Source of the DNA: Terriglobus sp. TAA 43 | GTDB taxonomy: Bacteria; Acidobacteriota; Terriglobia; Terriglobales; Acidobacteriaceae | DNA: 64,000 nt | Reading direction: 5' to 3' | Assembly (NCBI RefSeq): GCF_000800015.1 | Contig: NZ_JUGR01000001.1 | Span: 1,922,001-1,986,000, forward strand | Shown here: positions 8,428-29,002 of the stretch, one piece after another | Numbering within the stretch: the first letter of the stretch is position 1 | Layout of the letters: each line of letters opens with the position of its first letter | Made by a program: the position numbers and the translations under genes | Notes under the pieces: generated by a model | Told to the model about the DNA's origin: nothing | Seen by the model: only the letters and a program-made list of their open reading frames with translations | The model's database searches: none

Positions 8428-9534
8428 TTACAAGCCGACTTCCACCTTACGAACCGGAGCGGCGTACAGTCGTCCTCGCAACCAGAAGGCCACCTTCACT
8501 AACCCAATCAGCGCGGGCACTTCGATGAGCGGCCCAACAACCCCCACAAAAGCCTCGCCCGAGTTCAAACCAAAGACAGCCACAGCAACAGCAATCGCCA
8601 ACTCAAAGTTGTTGCCTGCCGCAGTGAACGACAACGTGGCAGATTGTGCGTAATCCGCTCCAAGCTGCTTGCCCATAAAGAAGCTCACCACAAACATGAT
8701 GAGGAAGTAAATCACCAGCGGAATCGTAATCCTCACCACATCCAGCGGAAGCCGCACAATCAAGTCGCCCTTAAGCGAGAACATCACAAGGATGGTGAAA
8801 AGGAGCGCCACAAGCGTAAGCGGACTGATGCGCGGCACAAAGCGAGTCCGATACCACTCCTCACCTCTAGCTCGAATCAGCACGAAGCGTGTCAGAAACC
8901 CCGCAACAAACGGCACGCCAAGATACAGGCCAACACTCTTCGCAATATCGACAATGCCAATCGAAACAACGCTTCCAGTCAGCCCGAACCACTTCGGCAA
9001 AACCGTCAGGAACATCCACGCATACACGCTATAAAACAGCACCTGAAAGACGCTATTAATGGCCACAAGCCCAGCGACATAATCTGTGTCGCCCTCTGCC
9101 AGTTCATTCCAAACAAGCACCATCGCAATGCAACGCGCAATACCAATCAGAATCAAGCCACGCATGTAGGCCGGTTCGCCACGCAGGAAAACAATGGCAA
9201 GCAGGAACATCAGCACCGGCCCAATCAGCCAGTTCTGCACCAGCGAAAGACCAAGCACGCGTTTGTTACGAAACACCTCGCCAAGTTTTTCGTAGCGCAC
9301 CTTTGCCAACGGCGGAAACATCATCACGATGAGGCCAATGGCAATAGGAATGTTTGTCGTTCCGCTCTGGAATCCATTCACGAAAGTCGCAGACGACGGC
9401 ATGAAGTGACCGATTGCAACGCCAATCGCCATCGCAAGAAAAATCCATAGCGTTAGAAAACGGTCCAGAAACGAAAGCCGCTTGCGCGCTGCAGGAGCGC
9501 AGATCTGGCCATTGGTAAAGGAAGCGGTGGCCAT
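8428..9534 (-). CDS. acr3: Arsenite efflux permease, ACR3 type
   Basis: A 368-residue inner-membrane carrier with about ten membrane helices that exports arsenite using the proton-motive force. The family-defining cysteine is in [14 protein letters not shown] (C135), and [19 protein letters not shown] near residues 61-79 is the conserved second-helix region. It is the second gene of arsR-acr3: the arsR stop and the acr3 start share one base (TAATG at 9532-9536), a layout that favours translational coupling. Regulation should be by ArsR at the dyads near 9968-10006. Often annotated arsB, but the sequence belongs to the ACR3/BASS fold group, not classical ArsB. Confidence 0.95.
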
Positions 9535-9944
9535 TAGCAGGTCTCACAGCACGGTTCAGAAATTGACGCAGGGATTGGCGCTCCATCCAGTGCGTACTTC
9601 GCCGGAGAGCAACAGGCCTTACTCAGCCGCGCTTTGTCCATCTGCATCGACTTCTCTTCTTTCAATGAAGCAAGTGTCTGCTTAAGAATCTGTGTCGCAC
9701 CAACATGCGCAGGCATCACGATGCGATAGTGCATCCACTTACCTTCGCGTCGCGCTGAAACAATTCCGGCCTTGCGAAGATAAGCAAGATGCCGCGAAAT
9801 CTTCGGCTGTGGCGCATCAAGAATTTCAACGAAGTAGCAGACGCAGACTTCCTGCTCCCCCATCAGGTTGAGCAATCGCAGGCGCGTCCTGTCCCCCAAC
9901 GCCTGAAAGAACTGCTCCATGTCGAATTCCGTTTTTCGTGCCAT
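9534..9944 (-). CDS. arsR: ArsR-family metalloregulator with Cys-rich tail
   Basis: A 136-residue winged-helix repressor expected to leave DNA when arsenite binds. The CVC pair (C34, C36) sits at the start of the recognition region, as in the classical ELCVCDL site, and the helix-turn-helix runs about residues 43-62. The C terminus adds CCSPA (C111, C112) and ends PCCETC (C132, C133, C136), which is longer and more Cys-rich than usual and may bind extra metalloid. The start has no ribosome site and the likely -10 box lies about 7 nt from the ATG, so the mRNA may be leaderless. The CCSPA motif recurs in ArsM. Confidence 0.95.
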
Positions 9945-9950
9945 GTTATA

Positions 9951-10006
9951 TATATACGCATTGACGAATATGTATGCAATACATATATTCGCTTTAGCAA
10001 ATATAT
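9951..10006. promoter_or_regulatory. Divergent ars promoters and ArsR operator dyads
   Basis: For arsM: -35 TTGACG (9961-9966), 17-nt spacer, -10 TATATT (9984-9989). For arsR on the minus strand: -35 TTGCAT (9974-9979), 17-nt spacer, -10 TATATA (9951-9956). Two dyads cover them. The first, ATATGTAT gca ATACATAT (9968-9986), spans the arsR -35. The second, ATATATTCGC ttta GCAAATATAT (9983-10006, one mismatch), spans the arsM -10 and start point. Both could be occupied by ArsR and silence the two units together. Assignment to ArsR is inferred from position. Confidence 0.75.
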
Positions 10007-10013
10007 GAGGAAC

Positions 10014-10892
10014 ATGTCAGAGATTCTGGATTCGGTAAAAGCAAAGTACGGCGCGGTGGCAGAGAGTTCCCTCTCCAGCAACCATGCGGGCGTGAAGGCC
10101 GTCGCGGAAGCCTTCGGTTACAGCGCCGAAGAGCTAACTTCCATTCCCGCAGAAGCCAACATGGGTCTCTCCTGCGGCAACCCAACAGCCACTGCAAACC
10201 TGCGAACCGGCGAAGTGGTTGTGGACCTGGGCTCTGGCGGTGGACTTGACGTGTTCCTCGCCTCCCAACAGATCGGACCAACAGGCAAGGCCATCGGCAT
10301 CGACATGACAGCCGCAATGATTGAACGTGCAAAGTCGAATGCGGAGAAGGGTGATTACACCAATGTCGAATTCCACTTGGCTAACATCGACAACATTCCG
10401 CTGCCTGACGCTTCGGTCGATTGCGTCATCTCCAACTGCGTTCTAAACCTTGCGCCAGATAAGCCCGCAGTCTTCCGCGAAATCGCACGCATCCTTAAGC
10501 CCGGAGGCCGCTTGGCAGTGAGCGATATCGCGCTCAAGAAAGAATTGCCAGAGGCTATCGCGACAAGCCTTGCTGCGTATGTCGGCTGTATAGCTGGAGC
10601 AATCCGCATTGAAACCTATCGCGAAGAACTATTGAAAGCCGGGTTCGAGTATGTCGAAATCGTCGACAACGGCTCCGATCTGAACGCATACAAGAAAGTT
10701 GAAAATCAAGCCGGGTGCTGCTCCCCCGCCATGAATGAGTCCAACCCGTTCGCCGTGGTTCAGGAAGCATGCTGTACACCTGAACCAACGGCCACCAGTT
10801 TGCATAATGACTTGTCTGCGCTGCTCGACACCTACGACGTAAATCAGGCCGCCGCCAGCGTAAAGGTCTACGCCATCAAACCCCGCCCTTAG
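10014..10892 (+). CDS. arsM: Arsenite S-adenosylmethionine methyltransferase
   Basis: A 292-residue class I methyltransferase that methylates arsenite to volatile or less toxic methylarsenicals. The SAM-binding loop is DLGSGGGLD (71-79). The arsenic-binding cysteines of the family appear at C54 (LSCGNP) and C192 (VGCIAG); further pairs C235-C236 (GCCSPA) and C253-C254 (ACCTP) lie in the C-terminal part. The ATG at 10014 gives the usual N terminus MSEIL; an in-frame ATG at 10005 adds three residues, and a far-upstream extension overlaps arsR and is not real. The ribosome site (GAGG, close spacing) is weak. The gene is followed by arsC after 19 nt. Confidence 0.93.
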
Positions 10893-10911
10893 TTCTGAGA
10901 GAACAGGAAAA

Positions 10912-11313
10912 ATGAAGACTGTAATTTTCGCTTGTGTTCACAATGCCGGCCGCTCACAGATGGCCGCTGCATTCTTCAATGCGCTTGCAGACCCATCCAA
11001 AGCGCGAGCGGTATCAACAGGAACCGAGCCCGGCACACACGTCCACCCTGAGGTTCTGGAAGTCATGCGCGAGATCGGTATCGACCTCAGCACCGCGCAG
11101 CCGCAAAAGCTCACTGAGGAGCTGGCTCGCACCGCCGATCTCCTCATCACCATGGGCTGCGGCGAGAAGTGCCCTTACGTGCCAGGGCTACGCCGTGACG
11201 ACTGGCCACTACGCGATCCCAAAGGACTCCCCATCGAACAGGTCCGTACGATTCGCGAGGAAGTGAAACAAAGAGTCGAGAACCTTTTGCAAGCCGAGGC
11301 CATTTCCACTTAA
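10912..11313 (+). CDS. arsC: Arsenate reductase, thioredoxin-coupled LMW-phosphatase type
   Basis: A 133-residue cytoplasmic enzyme that reduces arsenate to arsenite, the form exported by ACR3 and methylated by ArsM. The low-molecular-weight phosphatase P-loop is C8-VHNAGR-S (C8, R14). The redox cysteines that shuttle the disulfide are C83 and C87 in MGCGEKCP, spaced by three residues and so closer than the classical C82/C89 pair. The conserved acid lies in RRDDWPLRDPKG. AGGAAAA directly precedes the ATG. It is co-transcribed with arsM. Confidence 0.95.
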   Translation: MKTVIFACVHNAGRSQMAAAFFNALADPSKARAVSTGTEPGTHVHPEVLEVMREIGIDLSTAQPQKLTEELARTADLLITMGCGEKCPYVPGLRRDDWPLRDPKGLPIEQVRTIREEVKQRVENLLQAEAIST

Positions 11314-11331: not shown

Positions 11332-11590
11332 CGTAACGGCACGAGTGCCTGTCAAGCCCCGATACCATTCAAACCCAACAATCCAAAAGAAATAGAGTTG
11401 GCATGGTATTTCCGCCAAATCGCTAAAATAGAAACAAAGAGGAAAAGGGCCGCGCATTTGCGCGGCCCTAACTCTTTTAGAAAGACGATTTTGCCCCTAA
11501 CCCCAATGGGCAGACGATTTTACAGCCACTCCAGCCGTAACCCCAATAGAAAGACGATTTTAGAAAAACGAGGGGGAGGGGGTACCCCAC
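11332..11590 (+). repeat. Interspersed repeat, copy A
   Basis: This non-coding element is matched in reverse orientation by 28767-28990. Shared blocks in order are AACGGCACGA...GTGC..GTCAAGCCC, then CCAAAAGAAATA followed by AGTTGGCATGGTATTTCC (11383-11413), then three 24-nt units that each run from TAAC to AGACGATTTT (11469-11492, 11498-11521, 11538-11561), then AGAAAAAC and a GGGGTACCCC end. The spacers between units are 5 and 16 nt in both copies. Copy A also carries about 40 extra nt with a strong hairpin at 11447-11468. It fills most of the 339-nt gap after arsC. Confidence 0.92.
11447..11478 (+). terminator. Hairpin inside repeat copy A, probable arsC terminator
   Basis: Perfect stem GGGCCGCGC (11447-11455) / GCGCGGCCC (11460-11468), loop ATTT, followed by TAACTCTTTT. 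It lies 134 nt after the arsC stop and is absent from repeat copy B. Confidence 0.65.
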
Positions 11591-28766: not shown

Positions 28767-28990
28767 CAGGGGTACCCCCCTCCCCCTGTTTTTCTAAAAT
28801 CGTCTTTCTATTGGGGTTAGGGCTCTAGTGTCCGTAAAATCGCCTATTGATTGGAGTTAGAGGAAAAATCGTCTATCTAAAAGAGTTAGCTGATTAGGTT
28901 CGGGGAAATACCATGCCAACTGTATTTCTTTTGGTTTGTTGGGGTTGGGTGGTTTGAGGGCTTGACAGCACTTCGTGCCGTTCTCGACGC
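28767..28990 (-). repeat. Interspersed repeat, copy B (inverted relative to copy A)
   Basis: Reading on the minus strand, the order of blocks is the same as in copy A at 11332-11590. The three 24-nt units lie at 28865-28888, 28836-28859 and 28796-28819, with spacers of 5 nt (28860-28864) and 16 nt (28820-28835), exactly as in copy A. The left outer block contains GCACTTCGTGCCGTTCTCG (28968-28986), which is also found in the tandem repeat at 32291-32357. Copy B lacks the extra GGGCCGCGC hairpin of copy A. Confidence 0.92.
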
Positions 28991-29002
28991 CTTCGGCGGA
29001 AC

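Follow-up and report, generated by a model that had tools for sequence, protein, structure and literature searches.

Two copies of an interspersed element in the window

A repeat occurring twice, in opposite orientations, in the 64,000-nucleotide stretch of Terriglobus sp. TAA 43 DNA analysed here (the window) raised the question of what an element with strictly spaced internal units is, and of what might read it. The initial annotation described three 24-nt units separated by 5 and 16 nt in each copy, together with conserved outer blocks. Reading of both strands confirmed the units and spacers in both copies, and the outer blocks were likewise present in each. Copy A, located on the plus strand at 11349..11590 by sequence reading, own-genome BLAST and alignment, extends from CTGTCAAGCCCC to GGGGTACCCC. 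Unit 1 was placed at 11469..11492 by sequence reading and position matrix; unit 2, 5 nt further on (11498..11521), and unit 3, after another 16 nt (11538..11561), were placed by sequence reading and pattern search. Upstream of the units, alignment identified a conserved box, TTGGCATGGTATTTCC (11398..11413), followed by a −10-like TAnAAT box (11424..11429). A terminator scan identified a GC hairpin (11446..11469) that resembles a terminator in either direction, the T tail being longer on the minus strand. The right end consists of a G-run and GGGGTACCCC (11572..11588; sequence reading and alignment). Copy B (28769..28968, minus strand; sequence reading) has no hairpin or TAnAAT box. Its units 1, 2 and 3 are at 28865..28888, 28836..28859 and 28796..28819, respectively, by sequence reading and pattern search.

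The sequence TAACCCCAATAGAAAGACGATTTT, with up to three mismatches, was matched three times in the window and not at all in 100 shuffles. GGGGTACCCC alone, with one mismatch, was found twice, which is not significant (shuffle mean of 0.94, with 27 of the 100 shuffles reaching two). The extent first given for copy A, from 11332, was too long: the conserved element starts at CTGTCAAG (11349 in A, 28968 in B), and positions 11332-11348 are part of a separate short repeat. This repeat, GCCGAAGGCGTCGAGAACGGCACGAAGTGC and variants of it, stands directly to the left of the element at window positions 11332-11348 and 28969-29001. Repeats of the same type were noted in the left flanks of L002, L009, L012 and L021, and parts of it recur elsewhere in these genomes. 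An apparent arsenic cluster (window 8428-11313) ends just before copy A; we take its ORFs to be transporter-like, ArsR-like, methyltransferase-like and arsenate-reductase-like.

A wide family with fixed spacing

The two copies reported at first are real, but they belong to a far larger family. BLAST of the window's own genome (G000) with copy A gave 54 aligned pieces, and the best 40 of 53 candidates were aligned, placing a family of ~240 bp at at least 40 sites in this genome. The analysis also included two relatives, G003 (40 copies studied; 54 first-look candidates) and G008 (35 copies; 44 first-look candidates), and Terriglobus roseus (G012; 30 copies, with the right end placed in 24). In the 40-copy alignment, the left half of the element is comprised of CTGTCAAGCCCC, a variable stretch, TTGGCATGGTATTTCC, a spacer, CTAnAATAGAA and, in most copies, a GC-rich hairpin. 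The right half is comprised of unit 1, 5 nt, unit 2, 16 nt, unit 3, AGAAAAACA, a G-run and TACCCC.

The units were searched for in the four genomes using a position matrix without fixed spacing. All three units were identified in 39 of the 40 G000 copies, with spacers of 5+16 nt in 33, 5+17 nt in five and 5+18 nt in one. They were present in 40/40 copies in G003 (5+16 nt in 31), in 33/35 in G008 (5+16 nt in 24) and in 29/30 in T. roseus (5+17 nt in 27), where the unit sequence differs from that of the own-genome unit (e.g., TAAGTCCTTTGGAATCTAATTTTT). The initial annotation had named random spacing in other genomes, or a total of two copies, as the outcomes that would speak against it. Neither was observed: the family is large, and its spacing is constant in all four genomes for which it was determined, although the spacer sequences differ.

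A degenerate two-unit pattern with a 5-nt spacer, allowing up to two mismatches, was used to search 300 genomes of the bacterial family (79 genera), with the reversed pattern as the control. Matches were present in 36 genomes and 12 genera, and the control gave none. There were 43 matches in G000, 44 in G003, 19 in G008 and 33 in T. roseus. An exact-pattern scan of genome contigs gave no matches, in a set from which near genomes were possibly left out and with a pattern from which the T. roseus motif differs. The distal motif was common within one lineage and different between lineages (AGACGATTTT, ATCTAATTTTT, GACATTTTT and others), while the frame TAANNCC..T..A......TTTT that is common to the lineages is fixed by the search pattern itself. 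Among 30 loci read, the third unit was inverted in several, and modules can stand in tandem; inverted third units with complementarity to unit 2 were seen in several other genera. Unit 2 was more complementary to its own downstream stretch or third unit than to those of other loci (permutation p of 4 × 10−4, n = 54), and unit 1 gave a p of 0.026 for complementarity to the third unit. As it rests on related sequences, the unit 2 result is only suggestive.

A chance origin of the units was ruled out by the shuffles, the reversed-pattern control and the search of CQH loci described below. Coding units were ruled out by the unit offsets of 29 and 40 nt, which are not multiples of three.

Sequence constraint and folding

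Divergence was counted over 35 orthologous G000/G003 copy pairs, with the parts labelled on the 36th copy (L002). It was low in units 1, 2 and 3 (4.8%, 7.3% and 6.3%, respectively) and in the 11 nt that surround the TAnAAT box (6.3%). Low to intermediate values were obtained for the TTGGC box within TTGGCATGGTATTTCC and the left end (7.9% and 8.1%), as well as for the A tail (9.3%) and the 5-nt spacer (12.0%). It was high in the G-run region (16.1%), the left variable part (19.0%) and the hairpin stretch (21.8%), and highest in the 16-nt spacer (21.9%) and the spacer that adjoins the TTGGC box and leads to the TAnAAT box (24.8%). Only one of the compared copies (L011) precedes a CQH gene, so the maintenance of boxes and units extends to copies without the gene. 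The earlier view that the repeat is not junk is supported by units and boxes that diverge less than most of the intervening sequence, and selection seems to keep these parts of the copies working.

The hairpin region contained a stem of at least eight pairs in 59 of the 103 copies used (of 115), compared to 3 of 103 mononucleotide shuffles; 44 of the 103 had no such stem. Paired variants were observed (AGGGCCGCGA/TCGCGGCCCT and AGAGCAGCGAATC/GATTCGCTGCTCT), and the conserved hairpin stands outside the units. In copy A, two terminator-like hits, one on each strand, were found (shuffle mean of 0.7). The plus strand of copy A folded better than its shuffles (z of −4.5), and more so than the minus strand (z of −2.4), mainly through the hairpin. 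The units alone folded little better than shuffles (z of −1.35) and were largely unpaired. A simple sigma-70 scan of copy A found no promoter at the TAnAAT box.

Genomic placement and possible mobility

Where the gene to the right is convergent, its stop codon was within 14 nt of the right end of the element in 15/26 (G000), 12/24 (G003), 14/19 (G008) and 12/18 (T. roseus) copies; these counts derive from a crude codon-based gene caller and are uncorrected for random placement. Most copies were common to G000 and G003: a match to the right flank was obtained for 36/40 copies and one to the left flank for 25, a number that includes one match to another copy. In the comparison with G008, the right flank was matched in 25 copies and the left in 12. 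Ten of the 11 copies matched to G003 by the right flank only were re-examined with 16-kb left flanks. Synteny resumed in 10/10, with differing sequence at the left end of the element in one or both genomes. An insertion hotspot at the left flank is not claimed, given the breaks elsewhere in the same stretches and the closeness of the right end to a gene.

Mobility is thinly documented, as a joined-flank test for empty sites in nine copies gave one clean case (L010) in a close relative. G003 lacks this copy and has two abutting convergent stop codons at the site, and G008 has unrelated sequence at this position. No target duplication was visible by eye at this one site, and the pattern fits a lineage-specific gain without visible target duplication. 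Another copy, L038, is missing in G008 (unrelated sequence), and a match across the junction in G017 was only 65% identical. Five of the 16 genes for Y1 tyrosine transposases that scored over the cut-off are within ~2 kb of an element (G008 C2:17557 and C1:1548259; G012 C1:3272824 and C1:4463886; G000 C3:226007), a proximity that looks more than copy density would give.

Orthologous elements were mutual best matches in 26/36 pairs with G003, and in only 4/25 pairs with G008, a low reciprocity that fits saturation or conversion. Most T. roseus copies have other neighbours than the G000 copies, and the copies therefore seem to have multiplied separately. A conserved regulon was rejected, as only 2 of 24 T. 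roseus right-hand genes have a G000 right-hand counterpart of >50% identity over most of their length; identity is 52% for one of the two, the CQH gene, and 94% for the other.

The CQH gene downstream of the element

A dedicated encoded partner was among the things that the initial annotation proposed to look for, and a candidate was found by position and co-occurrence. The route to it was a left module in G018, through which small ORFs were found. One such ORF was searched for in 18 chosen genomes and was present in 12/12 with elements or the left module and in 0/6 without. We use CQH protein as a working name for this small undescribed protein, which has a conserved C-C-C-H set.

In G000, G003, G008 and G012, an element and the CQH gene are neighbours on one strand, with the gene just behind the right end of the element. 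In G000 the element is at 3472266-3472457 and the CQH gene match starts at 3472521. G012 was assigned to T. roseus DSM 18391 on the ground that the CQH leader and protein of locus L273 are the same in sequence as copy L074 and protein L248 of G012. The gene also follows a unit pair in G005, G200 and G229, is ~0.5 kb downstream of one in G081, and in G145 a weak CQH match (E of 6 × 10−4) follows a unit pair. Among the matches listed, 70 named CQH loci (401 kb) were searched for the unit pair with up to four mismatches. The pair was identified in 14 of these 70 loci, once each, 133-598 nt upstream of the match start and co-oriented. The 401 kb contained no other unit-pair match on either strand, and the reversed control gave none. 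The remaining 56 listed loci were without the pair, a few of them having too little upstream sequence to tell. Six of the 14 unit-bearing loci come from genomes of the 18-genome test (identical proteins), and the two tests overlap to that extent. Many of the 22 CQH leaders read keep one order of parts: TTGTCAAGCCCC and boxes like those of a promoter come first, then a hairpin of terminator type and sites resembling the units, and finally a G-run with TACCCC and the ATG. The remaining leaders are without some of these parts.

The CQH family was present in 154 of the 300 genomes. At E ≤ 1 × 10−10 it was found in 35/36 unit-positive and 119/264 unit-negative genomes (Fisher p of 1.8 × 10−10, which is not a true probability in related genomes), G124 being the sole unit-positive genome without a match at this cut-off. 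Within the genus, the family was present in 6/6 unit-positive and 3/13 unit-negative genomes (p of 0.003). In the 119 unit-negative genomes that carry it, either CQH needs no such units or the units have diverged beyond the search pattern. In other CQH subfamilies (L303, L321, L335 and L339), the leaders were noted to have single unit-like sites, ..TTCGAAGACTTTGCAC.. and near variants, and not the spaced pair.

Residues C6, C16, C27 and H30 are invariant, and a C-terminal R-A-x-x-x-L-Y-x-L-Q is kept, in the family alignment and in a 53-row alignment of named relatives. No family in Pfam, NCBIfam, PHROGs or PADLOC was matched over the cut-off, with zf-primase (E = 0.011) and DUF5763 (E = 0.006) as sub-cut-off matches, and PDB sequences gave no credible match. 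An AlphaFold model from 53 relatives was small, with a mean pLDDT of 83 and a pTM of 0.68, and Foldseek returned no significant fold match for it (best E of 1.1). CQH is a widespread unannotated protein family of soil Acidobacteria. The C-C-C-H set and the sub-cut-off zinc-finger matches suggest that the protein may bind nucleic acid.

Interpretation and alternative explanations

We consider it probable that the element is leader-derived, i.e., a dispersed form of the complete 5' leader of the CQH gene, with the units as putative sites of the cognate CQH protein. This reading starts from the observed leader identity, spacing, co-occurrence and constraint. In several genomes one copy is directly before the CQH gene, and dozens are elsewhere without the gene, many of them close to gene ends. 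The CQH protein would bind the units and, when bound to those in its own leader, would regulate its own expression. The gene-less copies, with their promoter boxes and units, could serve as decoys or as local control sites for the same protein, and would have come about as the leader spread to junctions where genes end. A distal motif that is common within a lineage and different between lineages would be expected if the units follow one trans-acting partner, although a common motif within a lineage could also stem from amplification of one master copy. As the third unit occurs in either orientation across lineages, duplex DNA is slightly favoured over RNA as the form in which the units would be read.

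More tentatively, the Acidobacteriaceae may contain a new class of genome-wide control system, in which a small zinc-finger-like protein of fast-changing specificity has its leader scattered as dozens of promoter-bearing, selected satellites without coding sequence; these would provide the cell with tens of cognate triple sites as a distributed decoy or control array, with the motif re-matched in each lineage. We regard this as a possibility that has the odds against it. Either reading, if true, would tie a widespread unannotated protein family of Acidobacteria to a concrete set of candidate sites, and would make it testable how a gene without a recognisable transposase domain gains tens of leader-only copies that are kept by selection. 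The parallel change of spaced sites in several lineages would provide a natural data set for protein-site co-evolution.

Multi-site Csr/Rsm RNAs sequester CsrA, and by analogy each copy might be a small RNA gene whose transcript, a hairpin with three single-stranded units, would sequester CQH, while sites in the CQH mRNA leader would provide autoregulation. Copies without the gene show constraint on their promoter-like boxes (6-8% compared to 16-25%), so selection may be acting on transcription, and the largely unpaired units of copy A and the better fold of its plus strand, mainly through the hairpin, are consistent with this account. However, an inverted third unit, as found in several genera, could be read by a reader of duplex DNA and not by one of single-stranded RNA, and the units of some T. 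roseus copies have a hairpin of terminator type before them; we would give such an RNA a real but minor chance. The placement of the right end could instead indicate a 3'-end device, at which transcription of the convergent neighbour would be stopped or blocked, the G-run being placed immediately behind the stop codon of that gene. The counts within 14 nt of convergent stop codons (15/26 in G000 and 14/19 in G008, for example) and a hairpin with a T tail that reads as a terminator on that strand would agree with such a device. We think it unlikely, however, as 13 of the 39 genes called to the right of G000 copies have a different orientation from convergent, and the constrained promoter-like boxes and the downstream CQH gene would be left unexplained; in addition, a site beside stop codons is the safest for any insertion, and the gene calls are crude.

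Two further accounts treat the copies as parts of transposons. Miniature elements of the REP/RAYT or IS200 type, moved by a Y1 tyrosine transposase, would be consistent with the clean empty site of L010, at which no target duplication was visible. All six genomes searched contained Y1 genes (five with a total of 16 over the cut-off, and G006 with one match below it), at ~0.6 kb from an element in G008 (C2:17557) and G012 (C1:3272824) and at 1-2 kb in three other cases. However, the Y1 genes of G000 (C3:226007 and C1:1566687) adjoin no element, the nearest being ~1.8 kb away, and the gene that is repeatedly behind the element is CQH, which has no Y1 domain in Pfam. We judge movement by Y1 improbable. 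The ends of Tn7/Mu resemble the left end of the element, TGTCAAG, and three ~24-bp sites with fixed unequal spacing near one end could be the transposase sites of such a transposon end. An inverted unit was found in the left 170 nt of 0/40 own-genome copies, however, at a score that forward units reach in 40/40; the copies are too short for a transposase gene, and no target duplication was visible at the one site. A Tn7/Mu-like end is hardly credible on these grounds.

Comparison with known systems

The three diverged units with spacers of 5 and 16 nt are unlike a CRISPR array, in which spacers of equal length separate near-identical repeats. If the RNA account were right, the resemblance to Csr/Rsm RNAs would include several short motifs in one RNA and sites in the regulator's own leader; in contrast to those RNAs, the units here have no recurrent GGA, and the motif is lineage-specific, occurs at tens of loci per genome and has an inverted third unit in other genera. 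As in MITEs, the copies are non-autonomous and dispersed, with a single-gene relative. Unlike MITEs, the ends CTGTCAAGCCCC and GGGGTACCCC are not inverted repeats (alignment by eye), there is no inverted unit at the left end, and no transposase was identified for the element. As to a target duplication, none was visible by eye at the single clean empty site.

REPs are described as palindromes of 20-40 bp with a Y1 transposase, interspersed in extragenic space (PMC3733652). By that description the element is similar to REP/RAYT systems, as a short extragenic interspersed repeat with many gene-less copies and a gene adjoining one copy. It differs from them in its length of ~240 bp and its three direct 24-nt units, and it is not a palindrome of 20-40 bp with a GTAG or CGTC tag. 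The gene here, moreover, encodes an undescribed C-C-C-H protein and is placed behind the element as behind a leader. Acido-1 and Acido-Lenti-1 (RF01686 and RF01687) are presented as structured RNA candidates of Acidobacteria (PMC2864571). Neither matched copy A at E ≤ 1 in Rfam. None of 4227 Rfam families reached the gathering score over the window; copy A gave 10 matches at E ≤ 1, all far below gathering scores and none credible, and a tRNA scan found none. Neither the element nor CQH gave a match over the cut-off in the family libraries and fold search used. Among the listed titles and abstracts on repeats and small RNAs of Acidobacteria, Terriglobus and Edaphobacter, in a collection with few subscription papers, none describes the element.

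Variant forms of the element

Seven T. roseus copies (L075, L078, L082, L088, L090, L097 and L099) were of a compact type, in which CTTGACA, 7 nt and TAnAAT (TAAACT in L088) stand in place of the left module. Behind the box comes a GC-rich hairpin that has a T tail in most of these copies, and the arrangement reads as a second promoter-like type with unusual spacing. In G001, what comes after the left module of L046 is not a CQH gene but an ORF of 72 codons, together with paired sites of the type TAAGTTC/GAACTTAG. This locus ends in a G-run at an apparent convergent stop codon, and the ORF is possibly another cargo.
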